Assembly: GCA_903831255.1 (NCBI GenBank)
Contig: CAIKWZ010000047.1
Coordinates: 1 to 64,000, forward strand
Reading direction: 5' to 3'
Length of the DNA: 64,000 bases
From: an uncultured Alphaproteobacteria bacterium
Lineage (GTDB): Bacteria; Pseudomonadota; Alphaproteobacteria; Caulobacterales; Hyphomonadaceae
Under the pieces are notes generated by a model that did no database searches, was not told the DNA's origin, and worked only from the letters and a program-made list of their open reading frames with translations. The position numbers were made by a program, and so were the translations under genes. Position 1 is the first letter of the stretch. Each line of letters begins with the position of its first letter. Of the stretch, positions 52,527-64,000 are shown one piece after another.

Positions 52527-52919
52527 TTAGCCCTGAGGCGATAGGCCCGCGGGAGACAGCCTCATCCATACGCCCTCACGGTCCGCCTGGACTCGCTCAA
52601 CCAGCAGTCGCGCAACCTGGCTATCATCATGAAAGACGGCTCCGCAGGCGCTGTCGAGCAGAGCCTTTGCGAGATTATCGAGGTCCATCCAAGGCGGATC
52701 CCCTTTGAACTCCATCCGGATATGAACCTCAAAGTCGCCCCACCGGGGGCGCACCTCCTGAAATGTCTTACGAAAGAATTCCCGCACGAGAGGCTTGTAG
52801 TACTTGGTCTGCGTGGTCAGCCCCTCGATATGAAGCTCGACACCACCCTGCTCCCGAAGCCGCGCCCGGATTTTGCCGCTGCGAACCCATGGACGCCCGT
52901 CATCTTCATGTCGATCCAT
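52527..52919 (-). CDS. RusA-like Holliday-junction nuclease family protein
   Basis: A 130-residue protein with the RusA fold. The acidic signature is WMDLDNLAKALLDSACGAVFHDD, giving D79, D81, D88 and D98/D99 as the metal cluster equivalent to RusA's catalytic Asp residues. RusA enzymes resolve four-way junctions and are mostly phage-borne; here there are no phage genes nearby. The start at 52919 has AGAGG six bases upstream, whereas the frame extends to 53072 over the divergent gene. Whether it cuts junctions is untested. The C-terminus is short and lacks obvious extra domains. Confidence 0.75.
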   Translation of the reverse strand: MDRHEDDGRPWVRSGKIRARLREQGGVELHIEGLTTQTKYYKPLVREFFRKTFQEVRPRWGDFEVHIRMEFKGDPPWMDLDNLAKALLDSACGAVFHDDSQVARLLVERVQADREGVWMRLSPAGLSPQG

Positions 52920-53077
52920 CTCAGACCTCTCCCTCTGGCTCTGGACAGTTGAGAGGAGATCTGTGCGAGTTGACGGGAGAACGGAAGTAACGACGAATGC
53001 CGACCCGGATGCGGAACGCGCAATAGCCCGAGCGACGCCTCCGACGGATGGCACGATCGACAAATGGATCACTGGGC

Positions 53078-57096: not shown

Positions 57097-58173
57097 TCAC
57101 CCGTCAGATCGGGGACCCGATGCGACGACGAAGGCATGACCGTCCGAGTTAAAAGCCATGACCTTTTCCGGCTCAATGAAAACGCTTTTCATGAGGCCCG
57201 TGGAGACGGGCCCTCCGGCTCCTGCCGCCCTCCAGACGCCATGGACGGAGTTGAATCGCAGGAATTGTCCGCCGGCGATTATCTCCTCGCCATCGGACCT
57301 CACGACCACTCTCATTGCTCGAGGGCTCGTCCGTTCGAGTTTGAGATCTGCAGGCCTGAACGCCAATGTGATGCGGCCCTCTGCCGGCAGGACAAGACCC
57401 TCAGGGGGATGAAAGCTTGCGCCATCCTCGGTCCGTATCCCCCGGGCGGCGATCTCGAGCCGCATCGTGTTGAGGCACGGGTGCGCCATGGCTCTGGCGA
57501 CGGAAAGCGTCACGGGAAAACCAGCAACGTCCTCCGCCGACCCTGACTGGATCAGACGTCCCTGTTCCATGACGACACTTGTACCACGCAGAACCGAAGC
57601 CTCTCGACCTTCCGACGCCAGGTAGATCACGGCAGCGCCCGTCTCCAGGAGGACTGAAGTCATCTCGTCCAGAAGCCTGTCCACCCCCTCGTGAGCAATC
57701 CCTTCAAAGGGATCGCTCACGACAAGGACATCAGGCTCGGCGGCAAGAGCTGCAGCCAAAGTCATTCTGAGACGTAACTCGGCGTCAGGCGCCTTGAGCC
57801 CGAAATCCTCCCGACCTCCCAGTCCCGCTCGCTGAAGCGCGTTCCTGAGATCCGCATCTCCGGGCGCTGCACCCGCGACCCTGCGAACCAGCCGTTCTGT
57901 AAACGATCGGACTGTTCGACCCTCGACCGAAGCCCCTTCGGCGCCAAGCGCCATCACGCGGATACGCCGACGACCAGAGGGGTTACGGGAGAGTATTCGG
58001 ACCGTTCCCGACGACGGCCGCACCTGCCCCCTGAGGATACGGGAGACCGCGCGCCTTTCTTCGGCCGACAGGCCAAGAACGACGCAAATCTCTCCCGCGA
58101 GAAAAACGACACTCACGCCATCCAACAGAGGACTGCCGGCGACAGAATGGGAGACCGCCCTGAGCTCAAGCAT
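57097..58173 (-). CDS. MalK-like ABC protein without ATPase motifs
   Basis: A 358-residue protein with the overall layout of a MalK/UgpC-type ABC ATPase: a nucleotide-binding-like domain (about residues 1-230) and a TOBE-type regulatory domain with ITLAFRPADLKLE (about 267-279). All nucleotide motifs are lost. The P-loop region reads VLGLSAEERRAV instead of GxxGxGKS, the signature LSGGQ is KAPDAELR, Walker B reads VLVVSDPFEG, and the switch His is replaced in YLASEGREA. The frame is intact and its hydrophobic pattern is preserved, so it is a pseudo-enzyme rather than a random reading frame. No permease or binding protein is adjacent. The start is an ATG with a TTG two codons upstream. Confidence 0.75.
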   Translation of the reverse strand: MLELRAVSHSVAGSPLLDGVSVVFLAGEICVVLGLSAEERRAVSRILRGQVRPSSGTVRILSRNPSGRRRIRVMALGAEGASVEGRTVRSFTERLVRRVAGAAPGDADLRNALQRAGLGGREDFGLKAPDAELRLRMTLAAALAAEPDVLVVSDPFEGIAHEGVDRLLDEMTSVLLETGAAVIYLASEGREASVLRGTSVVMEQGRLIQSGSAEDVAGFPVTLSVARAMAHPCLNTMRLEIAARGIRTEDGASFHPPEGLVLPAEGRITLAFRPADLKLERTSPRAMRVVVRSDGEEIIAGGQFLRFNSVHGVWRAAGAGGPVSTGLMKSVFIEPEKVMAFNSDGHAFVVASGPRSDG

Positions 58174-58366
58174 CGTCAACCGCCAGCAGACGTCTAAACA
58201 AAGGCTCTAAGCCATCACCTCCATTATGATCGACGGCCCGAATGCGTCAAACAGGCCTTCGCCCCTGAGGGGAAATGTCCGGGATGAGGGCCGGCACGCT
58301 CGCGGAGGGGTTAACAAGAGGCGCCTTGGAGCTGAATTTTAAGTGAGGGCCAACAGGAATACGGTC

Positions 58367-58385: not shown

Positions 58386-58443
58386 TAGACCTTTGTAAAC
58401 CATGCCTCGTCAGGCGCCAGAGACTCTGCCGGAGACGCACCTT

Positions 58444-60060
58444 ATGAATTGGAAGCAACTGATCCGTTCGCCCCGAGGAGCGCTTATTGGCCTCGGAACG
58501 GTCGCCGTGGCGATCGGCGCTGGAGTCATGATAACCAACAGCCTGAAAGGCGCCTCCGCAAAAGGAGAAGTAACCTTCGAAACGGCGAAGATCGATCGGG
58601 GAGACGTCGCACGGATAGTGACCGCCTCAGGAGCGGTGCAGCCCTTAGACAAGGTCGATGTCGGCTCTGAGGTCTCTGGCAAAATCACCGAACTCTTTGT
58701 CGACTTCAATTCACGCGTGAGGAAAAATCAGGTTCTCGCTCAAATCGACCCTCAGACATTCAGAACGGCAGTCGAATCAGCGCGTGCGCGTCTCCTTCAG
58801 TCTGAAGCGGCGGTTGCAACTGCGCGCACGTCGATGGAGCGCTCCAAGGTCAAACTTGAAGTGATGGAAAAGACCTATAACCGCCAGAAGGCATTGTTCG
58901 CGGAACAGGCGATCTCGCAGGCGGCATGGGAGCAGGCGGAGAGTGATTACGCCTTTGCCAAGCTCGACGTTGAGAACAATGAAGTCGCTATTCAGTCAGC
59001 CAGGGCAGGCCTGGCGCAGAGCAGAGCTTCGCTTGACGAAGCTGAGTTTCGTCTCAGCCGCACGAAGATCGTCTCGCCAATCGACGGCGTCGTCATCAAC
59101 AGGGAGGTCAATGTCGGCCAGACCGTTCAATCCTCGATGAACGTCGCGAAGTTTTTCACCATCGCCAACGATCTCTCGCAGATGCAGATCGAAGCCGCTG
59201 TGGTGGAATCGGATATTGGCGGCATCGATGAAGGTGACCGGGCGAGCTTCACAGTTGACGCTTTTCCTGGAGAGACATTCCAGGGCGTAGTCCGGCAGGT
59301 CCGGCCAAGGGGTGAAGAACAGGCGAATGTCGTCACCTACACAGTCGTAGTTTCCGCGCCAAACCCGACGGGAAAGCTGATGCCGGGGATGACGGCTAAC
59401 GTGGAGATTACGGCAGACCGAGTGGAAAATGTCCTGCGTATCGCGACGGACGTGACCCGCTACAACCCGCCCAAGGAGATGTTGGCCGCCCTCGAACAGG
59501 CTGATGGCGGGGGCGACGGAGGGGCCGATCGCCGGGGCAGCCAGGACGGCGGCGGCCCAGGTGGATTTGGCGGCGCTGGCGGGCGCAGAGGCGGCCCTCC
59601 GACAGGTGAGTGGCTGAAGGAGATCGGCGTCGACGACGCCCGGATAGAAAAGATAAATGCGGAAATGCGCACGGAAATGCAGAAAATGCAGGCCTCGATG
59701 CCGCGAAGGGAGGCGCAGAGCGGTCCTGCGGGACTGACCGGGGGCGGCGGCCCACCCGCAGCCCTGTTTCAGCAGGCGGACATGCAGGCCTTCCGCCAGA
59801 AGATGACGGCGTCGCAGGATGCCGTGATGCGTCGAAATCTGTCTGAGGAGGAATTCAACGAATTCAAAAAACGTCGATCCAGTCAGCAGTCGCAGAAACG
59901 GGCCGCGGTCTACGCTCTTGACGCAGAAGGCCAACTGACGCGTCAGATGCTTGTTCTCGGAATTTCAGACGGTTCTTTCACTGAGGTGCTTCGCGGCGCC
60001 GAGGAAGGTCAGGAATTCGTCATCCGCACAAAGGCTGAGGAAAAGCCGGCGGCGAAATGA
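58444..60060 (+). CDS. Periplasmic adaptor of a MacAB-type efflux pump
   Basis: A 538-residue membrane-fusion protein. An N-terminal transmembrane anchor (about residues 13-31) precedes the barrel-sandwich half VDVGSEVSGKITELFVD, a helical hairpin (about 105-205), the second lipoyl half with SPIDGVVINREVNVGQTV, and a beta-barrel domain (about 245-330). The membrane-proximal domain is split by about 140 extra residues (about 345-487): a Gly/Arg-rich stretch, then helices with the LSEEEFNEFKK motif. The domain resumes at AAVYALDAEGQ. GGAG lies before the ATG at 58444. It overlaps the ATPase gene by ATGA. Confidence 0.92.
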   Translation: MNWKQLIRSPRGALIGLGTVAVAIGAGVMITNSLKGASAKGEVTFETAKIDRGDVARIVTASGAVQPLDKVDVGSEVSGKITELFVDFNSRVRKNQVLAQIDPQTFRTAVESARARLLQSEAAVATARTSMERSKVKLEVMEKTYNRQKALFAEQAISQAAWEQAESDYAFAKLDVENNEVAIQSARAGLAQSRASLDEAEFRLSRTKIVSPIDGVVINREVNVGQTVQSSMNVAKFFTIANDLSQMQIEAAVVESDIGGIDEGDRASFTVDAFPGETFQGVVRQVRPRGEEQANVVTYTVVVSAPNPTGKLMPGMTANVEITADRVENVLRIATDVTRYNPPKEMLAALEQADGGGDGGADRRGSQDGGGPGGFGGAGGRRGGPPTGEWLKEIGVDDARIEKINAEMRTEMQKMQASMPRREAQSGPAGLTGGGGPPAALFQQADMQAFRQKMTASQDAVMRRNLSEEEFNEFKKRRSSQQSQKRAAVYALDAEGQLTRQMLVLGISDGSFTEVLRGAEEGQEFVIRTKAEEKPAAK

Positions 60061-60800
60061 ACATGTCATCCGAACCGTCAGCCGATCGGCCCATCATCTC
60101 GTGTCGGAACCTTTCCAAGATCTATAGGATGGGCGACCAGGAGGTTCACGCCCTGAATAGGGTCTCGCTGGACATCTGGCCTGGTGAATTCGTAGCGATC
60201 ATGGGACCTTCAGGATCCGGCAAATCATCACTTATGAACCTGATTGGCGCGCTCGACCGACCGACATCCGGTGAAATGTGGATAAAGGGCAGCGAACTCT
60301 CGGCGATGAGCCGAGACGAACTGGCGGACCTGCGCAACGAAACCCTGGGGTTCGTGTTTCAGCAGTTCAACTTGCTAAGCCGACAGGACGCCCTCTCCAA
60401 TGTGAAGTTGCCGCTCCGTTACGCCCGCAGGGAGATAAGTGATCTCGACGCGAGAGCGCGCGAATGCCTCGAGATGGTAGGTCTGGGGAATCGCATGGAT
60501 CACCGCCCCATGCAGCTCTCGGGCGGACAGCAGCAGAGAGTCGCGATCGCCCGGGCCCTGGTCAATCGCCCAAGCATACTCTTGGCGGATGAACCTACAG
60601 GCGCCCTTGATTCCCGTACCACCGCCGAGATCATGCAGCTTCTGGTGCAGCTCTCGAGACAAGGCATCACGATCGTGCTTGTAACTCATGAGGCAGACGT
60701 CGCAGCCTACGCTTCGCGGCAAATACATTTCCGAGACGGCGATATAGAATCAGACAGCGCAGCTCCGCGCACAAACATGTTGAGCGAGCAGATATCATGA
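60057..60800 (+). CDS. MacB-type ABC ATPase (LolD-like)
   Basis: A 247-residue ABC ATPase of the MacB/LolD group. Walker A GPSGSGKS, the group-specific [21 protein letters not shown], signature LSGGQQQR, Walker [14 protein letters not shown] and the switch histidine in [12 protein letters not shown] are all intact. In this operon the ATPase and permease are separate polypeptides, unlike E. coli MacB. It overlaps both neighbours by four bases. Confidence 0.95.
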
Positions 60801-62032
60801 AGCTGAAAGTCGCCTCGACCTCGGCCCTGGAGGCCTTGATTTCAAACCCTCTGCGAAGCCTTCTGACGATGCTTGGAATCATCATCGGCGTGGCGTCCGT
60901 CATGGTGATGATGTCCATTGGCGAAGGCGCCCGGGCTCAGATAGACGCTCAGATCGCCAGCGTAGGCTCCAATCTCCTGACTTTGAACCCGGGCGGCATA
61001 CAGAGGGGAGGACGCAATCAGGGCGGCGGCTCCGGACGTCCCTTTACCGAAGCGGATGTCACGGCGATCGCAGACCTCCCCTTTGTGGAAGCTGCAACAG
61101 GCGTGCTGAGCGGCCAGGCGACAGCGGTCTCAGAGGAAGGGAACTGGGTGACGACAGTTCAGGGCGGAGGCCCCGATTACTTTGCGGTCAACAACTGGAC
61201 GATCAGCGAAGGGCGACTGTTCACAGATCAGGAAGCGCGTTCAGGGTCGGCCGTCGTGGTGATCGGAGCCTCGACCGTCTCAAATCTCTTTCCGAATGGA
61301 AACGCTATAGGCCAGAGGATACGGATCAACAGCGTACCCGTTGAGATCATCGGAATTCTCGAAGCGAAGGGCCAGAGTGGCGGGGGAATGGGAATGGACA
61401 GGGACGACACGGTCGTCGGACCTCTGTCGATGGTCCGCAATCGCATCGTGGGCGGCAACCGATGGGTCTCCCGGCATGTGTCGCGGATCCAGTTTCTGGT
61501 GAGAGACGGCTATGATATCGCCTCTGCTCAGGATGAAGTCGCGCAATTGATGAGGGACCGGAGAAAGATCGCGCCAGGAGAGGCCGATAATTTCTCAATC
61601 TTTAACTTCGCTGACATGATTAAGCAGAGGGGGGCGGCCATGAACACGATGAGCATGCTCCTCGCCTTTACGGCGGCCGTCTCGTTGCTGGTCGGCGGAG
61701 TTGGGGTAATGAACATCATGCTTGTGTCTGTGACCGAACGGACACGGGAGATCGGGCTTCGAATGGCGATTGGCGCCCGAGGAGGCGACATTCTGATCCA
61801 GTTTCTGGTAGAAGCAGTATTGCTGTGCACTCTGGGAGGTCTGATCGGCATGTCGCTGGGATGGCTAGGAGCCTTTGGGGCCGCCCAGGTCGGAAAATGG
61901 CCCATGTCGGTCAGTCCGGTTATCATCGGAACAGCTTTGGGGGCGGCGGCCTCCGTTGGGCTGATATTTGGCTTCTTCCCGGCCCGCCGCGCCGCTCAAC
62001 TCGATCCAATTCAGGCATTGCGACATGATTGA
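60797..62032 (+). CDS. MacB-type permease subunit
   Basis: A 411-residue protein with the MacB core: one N-terminal transmembrane helix (about residues 15-40, LLTMLGIIIGVASVMVMMSIG), a large periplasmic domain (about 45-285) and three C-terminal helices of the FtsX fold (about 288-400, with NIMLVSVTERTREIGLRMAIGA). With the adaptor and outer-membrane lipoprotein it forms a tripartite pump powered by the separate ATPase. Such pumps export macrolides, peptides or lipids; the substrate here is unknown. Its stop overlaps the next gene. Confidence 0.94.
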   Translation: MKLKVASTSALEALISNPLRSLLTMLGIIIGVASVMVMMSIGEGARAQIDAQIASVGSNLLTLNPGGIQRGGRNQGGGSGRPFTEADVTAIADLPFVEAATGVLSGQATAVSEEGNWVTTVQGGGPDYFAVNNWTISEGRLFTDQEARSGSAVVVIGASTVSNLFPNGNAIGQRIRINSVPVEIIGILEAKGQSGGGMGMDRDDTVVGPLSMVRNRIVGGNRWVSRHVSRIQFLVRDGYDIASAQDEVAQLMRDRRKIAPGEADNFSIFNFADMIKQRGAAMNTMSMLLAFTAAVSLLVGGVGVMNIMLVSVTERTREIGLRMAIGARGGDILIQFLVEAVLLCTLGGLIGMSLGWLGAFGAAQVGKWPMSVSPVIIGTALGAAASVGLIFGFFPARRAAQLDPIQALRHD

Positions 62033-63476
62033 TTCGACACTGACACGTGGGTCTGCACTCGGAGTCCTCGCCGCCATGCTGTCGGCGTGCGGACATTTAC
62101 CGGTAGCCCCTCCAGCCTTTGAGGAAATGGCCGTTCAGAGAACGGGACTGCCTGCGGACTGGACGTTGGCGCCGATGTCAGGAGACGCCTCGGGGGTCAT
62201 TGCCGACTATTCGGTCTTTGGGGACACCCAGCTGACTGGGTTCCTGAAAGAGGCCCTCGACAACAACCGTTCGCTGAAGGCGGCGCTTGAAAGCGTTCGT
62301 CAGTCAGAAGCCTTTCTCAAGCAGACGCGATCAGGACTTTGGCCGTCGCTTAGAGCCAGCGCAGGCGTGCGGTCATCATCTTTGACCGACGACCTGAGCT
62401 TTGACAGCGAGGCTTACTCATTTGATGTTGCCGGCGCTTACTCGCTCGACATCATGGGAGACTTGTCTGCGTCAATTCAGGCGTCGACAGCGGGCCTGCG
62501 CTCGACAGAAGCCACCTACGAGCTTGCTCGCCGACAGCTTGGGGCGCAGGTGGCGCGGGCATATTTCGCGGTGATTGAACAACAGCTTCAGCTGGAGCTG
62601 GATCGTCGGGCCCTCGCACGGGCCGTAGACACCTACCGTATCACACAGACACGATTCGATGCGGGATCCGCAGCGCGAGACGAGCTGGTCCTTGGGCAAT
62701 CCACCCTTGCCTCAAGCGAAGACAATGTGATCGCATCTGAAGCGTCGGTGAGAACTGCGATAAGAGCGCTGGAGATCCTCCTTGGACGTTTTCCGACCAA
62801 CGCCCTGAAGATCGGCGCCGCGCTACCCGAGCCTCCCAAGGCGCCGCCTCTGGGTATGACGGAGCTGACCATCAGATCACGTCCTGATGTTGTGGCGGCT
62901 GAGTTCAATCTCATTCAGGCCTTCGCCAACACACAGGTGGCCAAGCTGTCTCGCTGGCCTCAGCTCGATGCAAGCGTCGGCCTCGGTCTTGCGAACCGCA
63001 CCATCGATACGACAGAGAACCTCTTCGATTTTGACAATCTTGCAATGACGCTTGGGCTGTCTCTGGCGCAATCAATCTTCGACGGCGGCGCGATATCGGG
63101 CCGTATCGAAGCCGCCGAAGCCTCTAAGCGCGCTGCGCTTCAGCGATACGGACAAACCGTGATCGATGCCTACGGATCGATCGTCAATGCTGTCGATCAG
63201 TTTAACACCCTCCAGTCGCGTTCAAAGAGTCTCCAGACCGCTTCCGATGCGGCGCGAGAGACGGTTCGACTTAGCGAACTCAGATACAATGAAGGCAGCC
63301 AGAACCTTCTTGACCTGATCAACGTCCGCGAGCGAGCAGACCTTCAGGAATCTATTCTCATCTCAAACAGACGCGCTCGTATCGATCAGTGGATTGTTCT
63401 TCATCAGGCTCTCGGGGGCGACCCTTCCAAGACCACACCCGTCGCGACGCAGGCGGACACGGCGGAGGGAAGCTAA
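62025..63476 (+). CDS. Outer-membrane efflux lipoprotein (NodT/OprM type)
   Basis: A 483-residue TolC-superfamily lipoprotein. The signal peptide ends in the lipobox MLSA-C (cysteine about residue 22). Two repeated outer-membrane-factor units follow, with the YSVFGDTQL and QSEAFLKQTRSGLWP start of the first and LAQSIFDGGAISGRIEAAEA in the second. The last motif, YNEGSQNLLDLINVRERADLQ, is typical. The ATG overlaps the permease 3' end by eight bases. It completes the efflux operon. Confidence 0.94.
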   Translation: MIDSTLTRGSALGVLAAMLSACGHLPVAPPAFEEMAVQRTGLPADWTLAPMSGDASGVIADYSVFGDTQLTGFLKEALDNNRSLKAALESVRQSEAFLKQTRSGLWPSLRASAGVRSSSLTDDLSFDSEAYSFDVAGAYSLDIMGDLSASIQASTAGLRSTEATYELARRQLGAQVARAYFAVIEQQLQLELDRRALARAVDTYRITQTRFDAGSAARDELVLGQSTLASSEDNVIASEASVRTAIRALEILLGRFPTNALKIGAALPEPPKAPPLGMTELTIRSRPDVVAAEFNLIQAFANTQVAKLSRWPQLDASVGLGLANRTIDTTENLFDFDNLAMTLGLSLAQSIFDGGAISGRIEAAEASKRAALQRYGQTVIDAYGSIVNAVDQFNTLQSRSKSLQTASDAARETVRLSELRYNEGSQNLLDLINVRERADLQESILISNRRARIDQWIVLHQALGGDPSKTTPVATQADTAEGS

Positions 63477-63575: not shown

Positions 63576-63618
63576 CAGCGCATCCGCGCCTGTCCGCGTT
63601 CTCGACTGAGGGGTGACC

Positions 63619-64000
63619 ATGAAGGGCTTCCTGGCTTGCGGCGTGTCCGCTATTTGTATGCTCCTTGCAGGCTGTGATGACGGCGCGAAGGCGAAGTCTG
63701 CAGCCGACGCGGCGATTTTTCTGGAAGCTGCGGAGCAGGAGCTCGCCGAGCACAGCGAGTTCGCCGCTCGAACAGAATGGGCTCAACAGACGAACATCAG
63801 TTACGACACGGACTGGCTTCTCTCTCGGGCAAGCGCAATTGGGACCGAGCTCGTCGTACGCCTCGCGAATGAAACAAAAGCGTTCGAGGGTTTAGACCTT
63901 CCGCCTGAGCAGGCCCGGAAGATGGCCTTCCTTCGATCGGGCATCGTTATGCCCGCCCCGTCGCGTGAGGGAGCGGCAGCTGAGCTGGCCGAAATCACGA
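63619..64000 (+). CDS. M2 family (ACE-like) metallopeptidase lipoprotein, 5' part
   Basis: The first 127 codons of a gene that runs off the right edge. The signal peptide ends in the lipobox LLAG-C (cysteine 19). The mature start has the pattern of bacterial peptidyl-dipeptidase A homologues: DAAIFLEAAEQELAEHSEFAARTEWAQQTNI, then LPPEQARKMAFLRSGIVMPAPS. The zinc site lies outside the window. GAGG is close before the ATG. It is the second lipoprotein metallopeptidase in the region after the M13 enzyme. The family is assigned from the N-terminal pattern only. Confidence 0.82.
   Translation, partial: MKGFLACGVSAICMLLAGCDDGAKAKSAADAAIFLEAAEQELAEHSEFAARTEWAQQTNISYDTDWLLSRASAIGTELVVRLANETKAFEGLDLPPEQARKMAFLRSGIVMPAPSREGAAAELAEIT

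Follow-up and report, generated by a model that had tools for sequence, protein, structure and literature searches.

The gene at positions 57,097–58,173 on the reverse strand of the window, which is the whole stretch of 64,000 nucleotides that was analysed, encodes a pseudo-ATPase derived from GlpS of a glycerol ABC importer and co-opted to a site divergent from a macAB-tolC efflux operon, as judged from its open reading frame, its translation, its orthologues and its place in phylogenetic trees. The loss of its ATPase motifs is an ancient and fixed state of the gene rather than decay. The encoded protein may act as a non-catalytic regulator of, or signal to, the MacAB-TolC locus, a reading to which we give a little less than even confidence.

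Degenerate motifs and descent from GlpS

The reading frame is open from an ATG at 58,173 to a stop at 57,097 (358 amino acids plus stop), with an in-frame TTG at 58,179 offering an alternative start. Within it GLSAEERRA (residues 34–42; 58,048–58,074, reverse strand) replaces the Walker A consensus GxxGxGK[ST], KAPDAELR (residues 129–136; 57,766–57,789, reverse) stands for the LSGGQQQR of the ABC signature, and Walker B reads VVSDP (residues 150–155; 57,709–57,726, reverse) with the Asp changed to Ser and the catalytic Glu lost to Asp. The switch region (residues 181–192; 57,598–57,633, reverse) has the sequence ASEGREA and no His. The window protein thereby lacks the residues that make an enzyme of a MalK/UgpC-type ABC ATPase, namely Walker A, Q-loop, LSGGQ, Walker B Glu and switch His. 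By descent it belongs with these ATPases, being homologous to them over its full length with an NBD followed by a C-terminal OB/TOBE-like regulatory domain (residues 216–345; 57,139–57,528, reverse), the latter showing the top conservation within the pseudo-ATPase family.

As a single sequence the protein falls under the cut-off of Pfam ABC_tran (E=0.2), gives weak partial matches to NCBIfam MalK/PotG-type models (best 6e-13) and yields a structure model with a pLDDT of 35, too poor for a fold search. A profile built from the pseudo-ATPase orthologues matched AlgS (4tqu) at E=3e-36, with profile positions 4–333 aligned onto residues 7–360. The C-terminus of the window protein scores under the Pfam TOBE models, where GlpS matches TOBE_2 at 3e-7, and its TOBE-type assignment comes only via alignment to GlpS and AlgS/MalK.

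Orthologues were sought in 61 related genomes and then, using the alignment, in 105 genomes of the family, and 14 of the 15 congeneric genomes had one, as did a single genome from a sister genus (G020). The fifteenth genome of the genus (G006), for which no orthologue was called, has a completeness of 73% and a contig break shortly upstream of macA. Motif and frame counts rest on the 13 complete copies, none of which carries a stop or frameshift and all of which lack the Walker A Lys, LSGGQ and the catalytic Glu. The Walker A Lys has become Arg (Arg40) in 12 of the 13, while the Walker B Asp is retained in 11. The switch His is present in none of 33 GlpS sequences, and its loss in the pseudo-ATPase was therefore inherited from a GlpS ancestor that already lacked it.

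In two maximum-likelihood trees the pseudo-ATPases formed one clade (100% bootstrap). This clade grouped with GlpS, the first of the importer's two ATPases, apart from GlpT and the other MalK/UgpC-type ATPases, with support of 100/99 in the first tree, and in the larger second tree it lay with the family's own GlpS (83/91), in a run that warned of long branches, which leaves the affinity to GlpS better established than the exact point at which the clade joins the GlpS radiation. The pseudo-ATPase is the product of a single duplication nested in the GlpS radiation. It is a paralogue of GlpS and not an orthologue, as true GlpS copies lie inside the glp operon and the pseudo-ATPase never does. 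On contig C9 the same genome carries a bona fide glpS, as part of an operon ordered glpS-glpT-permease-permease-DUF2160-binding protein. The gene order, on which the glycerol assignment of this operon rests, agrees with that of the glpSTPQUV glycerol ABC importer operon of the Rhizobium leguminosarum type (PMC7912956).

GlpS and the pseudo-ATPase are best neighbours in the tree, homologous over their full length with the same domain order, and share 22 conserved residues, including W314, G326 and F341. They differ in that Walker A, LSGGQ and Walker B are each intact in 32–33 of the 33 GlpS sequences and glpS belongs to a transporter operon, whereas the pseudo-ATPase has none of the three intact and its gene sits at a macAB locus. 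Sampling of the order (299 genomes) and the class (385 genomes) yielded no further pseudo-ATPase; the class matches above 170 bits that were read out were ordinary GlpS, bearing LSGGQ and adjoining GlpT. A scan of contigs with the single window protein gave distant ordinary ABC ATPases only.

An earlier note, made from the sequence of this DNA, had described a MalK-like protein that has lost every ATPase motif with its frame, fold pattern and TOBE-type C-terminus remaining. The frame is indeed intact, and the fold pattern is borne out by the end-to-end alignment of the orthologue profile with solved MalK-type ATPases. The TOBE-type C-terminus stands by alignment but not by the Pfam models, and MalK-like is apt for the full-length homology to MalK/AlgS-type ATPases but not for the origin, which the trees place with GlpS and not MalK itself. 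The loss of every motif is accurate for Walker A, the signature, the catalytic Glu and the switch His of the window protein, but has to be qualified by the Walker B Asp kept in most orthologues and by the earlier date of the His loss.

A separate observation concerns the importer itself (L002:1501–3649, on contig C9 of genome G000, and L124–L142). Across the class GlpS keeps LSGGQ and has TTE in place of the switch His, while the GlpT sequences that were read out keep Walker A, Walker B and the His and have a degenerate signature (LSAED/LTADEKQK). Judged by these motifs, the two ATPases of the glycerol importer appear to form an asymmetric heterodimer in which one site matches the ABC consensus and the other is degenerate, an asymmetry by which the parent of the pseudo-ATPase would already have been the non-consensus half.

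Linkage to the macAB-tolC operon

The operon that diverges from the pseudo-ATPase gene lies on the forward strand and comprises genes for a MacA-like membrane fusion protein (58,402–60,060; HlyD_D23, Pfam 1.5e-21), a MacB-type ATPase with intact sequence motifs (60,057–60,800; Pfam ABC_tran 1.4e-34), a MacB-type permease with MacB_PCD and FtsX domain matches (60,797–62,032) and a TolC-like outer membrane factor (62,025–63,476, start approximate; OEP 1.8e-44). The same divergent arrangement of pseudo-ATPase and macA-macB ATPase-MacB permease-tolC was found wherever the junction is assembled; in genome G002 the contigs break inside the pseudo-ATPase gene and upstream of macA, and the junction there is consistent with linkage. 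The divergence from a MacAB-type efflux operon reported in the earlier note is therefore conserved across genomes, and its statement that the gene has no linked transporter genes has to be withdrawn. Linkage to glp genes was never seen. The other flank of the pseudo-ATPase gene is occupied, depending on the genome, by one of five genes, encoding an acyl-CoA dehydrogenase, an SSF symporter, an EAL protein, an esterase or MotA. In the closed genome G023 an orthologous macAB-tolC-M2 operon directly follows fumC without a pseudo-ATPase, indicating that the pseudo-ATPase most likely joined a pre-existing pump operon and that the pump does not need it.

In the intergenic region the pseudo-ATPase gene has a conserved sigma70-like promoter, TTGACG-N16-CATAAT (58,223–58,250, reverse strand), and the form TTGACG-N16-[CG]ATAAT is present in 13 of 14 genomes against 0.003 expected from shuffles. 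On the macA side lies a box, TGTTAC-N4-YTGAA[AT]TYT[AC]CGTGA, of which each of the six genomes searched (L143–L148) has a single copy. The window holds a weak copy (58,332–58,350, forward strand) of the relatives' TGTTAC-N4-YTGAA...CGTGA, and G023 has the box even though it has no pseudo-ATPase.

The shared intergenic region also leaves room for a ligand sensor or scaffold whose target is unrelated to MacAB, the linkage reflecting nothing but shared promoter architecture. Genes that diverge with interleaved promoters do not come apart easily, and the macA box of G023 exists without the pseudo-ATPase. Against this, the variety of neighbours on the other flank, five in all, shows that breaks near the locus are tolerated, yet none has occurred on the macA side, and we consider such an unrelated target improbable.

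Other features of the locus were noted. The macA-side box resembles, on its sequence, a dedicated operator. In the order-level outgroup G051 (L117:3669–5788) the macAB operon adjoins a gene for an OmpR-type response regulator, a candidate for binding the macA box, together with a gene placed like its sensor kinase. A gene for an M2-family (angiotensin-converting-enzyme-like) peptidase follows macAB-tolC in most genomes with enough flank, G023 included (window 63,613–64,000; L041:1749–3551; L046:15556–17367), a position that makes a functional link between the exporter and peptide processing possible. A RusA-type Holliday-junction endonuclease gene (window 52,527–53,072, reverse strand) lies in a chromosomal setting near fumC and keeps its position in some relatives (L052, L114).

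Shift of constraint and purifying selection

Within the genus the mean identity of GlpS is 0.67–0.79 in the ATPase domain versus 0.52 in the C-terminus, whereas within the pseudo-ATPase clade the corresponding values are 0.38–0.44 and 0.50. The weight of constraint has passed from catalysis and coupling onto the C-terminal regulatory domain. The most eroded part of the pseudo-ATPases, with 31% gaps, is the helical region between Q-loop and signature, the part of an ABC importer ATPase that docks on the permease. The copies of G011 and G012 (L017 and L016) are shorter still, having lost about 50 more residues across the helical subdomain, with the rest intact. The reversal of identity together with the erosion of the helical and Q-loop region speaks against an inactive transporter half and favours a function exerted through the C-terminal domain. 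The combination of LSGGQ and Q-loop lost together with C-terminal conservation kept suggests a possible recognition rule.

The same surfaces bear on whether the protein has kept a part in glycerol transport, binding GlpT or the importer without catalysis to act as a decoy or brake, with its position at macAB being historical. GlpS is its nearest relative and is itself already without the switch His, and the genus retains a glpSTPQ-DUF2160-V operon, but the surfaces for contact with the permease (Q-loop and helical region) and with the partner (signature and D-loop) are lost, linkage to glp genes is absent throughout and the promoter lies in the macA intergenic region, leaving a role in glycerol transport unlikely.

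It is also doubtful that the MacAB pump includes the protein as a subunit with a structural or ATP-independent task, such as stabilising or limiting the MacB ATPase as its partner. The strict operon linkage and the persistence of an NBD-like scaffold would suit such a subunit, but the MacB ATPase has a complete motif set of its own and so leaves nothing to complete, the G023 operon exists without a pseudo-ATPase, and the residues of the ABC dimer interface are gone. The intact MacB motifs and the eroded or deleted permease-contact region likewise disfavour the inactive half of a heterodimer that had been offered as one of the possible non-hydrolytic roles; the regulator and the sugar sensor offered with it may still apply.

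The dN/dS of the pseudo-ATPase gene is 0.11–0.26 for pairs spanning dS 0.13 to 1.4, and in the closest pair (G001/G005, dS 0.13) there are 29 synonymous differences on 245 sites versus 11 non-synonymous differences on 595 sites (Fisher p = 8e-9). At the protein level its rate of change is several times that of MacA, MacB and the permease encoded in the same genomes. With catalytic residues lost in every complete copy under purifying selection, the protein is on its sequence a predicted pseudoenzyme. The earlier proposal of selection for a non-hydrolytic role had named an orthologue with intact motifs, or a dN/dS near one, as outcomes that would tell against it, and the alignment of orthologues and the codon-level analysis returned neither, which supports the proposal. 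A pseudogene in neutral decay, which the loss of all catalytic motifs, the rapid evolution and the NBD deletions of about 20–50 residues in some orthologues might bring to mind, is rejected as extremely improbable given the unbroken frames, the low dN/dS and the conserved C-terminus and promoter. An assembly or frame error was likewise rejected, as orthologues carry the same changes.

Proposed role and comparison with known systems

In the regulatory model that we favour, a copy of glpS would have inserted divergently before an existing macA-macB-permease-tolC operon in the ancestor of the genus and its sister genus. The duplicate would then have lost ATP hydrolysis and permease docking, as its residues suggest, while retaining the RecA-like scaffold and, most of all, the regulatory domain at its C-terminus. 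The resulting non-catalytic cytoplasmic protein is probably dimeric, and its regulatory domain would bind a ligand or protein partner and thereby tune the MacAB-TolC efflux system, or the expression of that system, much as the regulatory domain of MalK-type ATPases serves in signalling. Inhibition by EIIAGlc runs via MalK, and the C-terminal domain of ModC mediates the action of molybdate (PMC10710835), which provides a precedent for the regulatory model rather than a proof of it.

Linkage and the shared intergenic region are what point to an effect on the adjacent MacAB operon, and linkage confined to one clade can persist without function. The pump operon that G023 maintains without a pseudo-ATPase and the faster evolution of the pseudo-ATPase than of macA and macB count against the regulatory model, and the sequence-based analysis identified no ligand, partner or DNA-binding feature of the protein. 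A more specific form, in which a duplicate of an importer ATPase has become a dedicated regulator whose C-terminal domain couples a sensed metabolite signal to the tripartite MacAB-TolC pump, is tentative and on balance rather unlikely; if true, it would represent a route from a transporter ATPase to a stand-alone signalling protein.

ABC pseudo-ATPases as such are already known, and a GlpS-derived one at an efflux locus is a new variation; a literature search, with most subscription journals outside its scope, turned up no account of one. ABC ATPase halves that have degenerated are familiar as parts of transporters, whereas here one is free-standing, genus-wide and tied to an unrelated efflux operon, and offers a clear example, open to test, of a transporter subunit that has probably become a signalling protein. 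The MalK/AlgS/UgpC-type (CUT1) ATPases share with the pseudo-ATPase a RecA-like domain and a C-terminal regulatory domain and can be aligned with it over the full length, but the pseudo-ATPase has no ATPase motif, Q-loop or cognate permease and its helical region is shortened. The degenerate NBDs of heterodimeric ABC transporters, such as TAP1 and CFTR NBD1, keep Walker A and bind ATP inside the transporter. Like the pseudo-ATPase they are domains of ABC fold that have lost catalytic residues and are under selection, whereas in the pseudo-ATPase the glycines and Lys of Walker A have gone along with the signature and the docking region, and its gene lies outside any transporter gene set. In MalK and ModC signalling, as in the proposed model, the regulatory output runs via a MalK-type subunit or its C-terminal domain, but there the effect is on the ATPase itself, whereas the pseudo-ATPase is predicted to be dead as an ATPase and its output would have to reach another protein.
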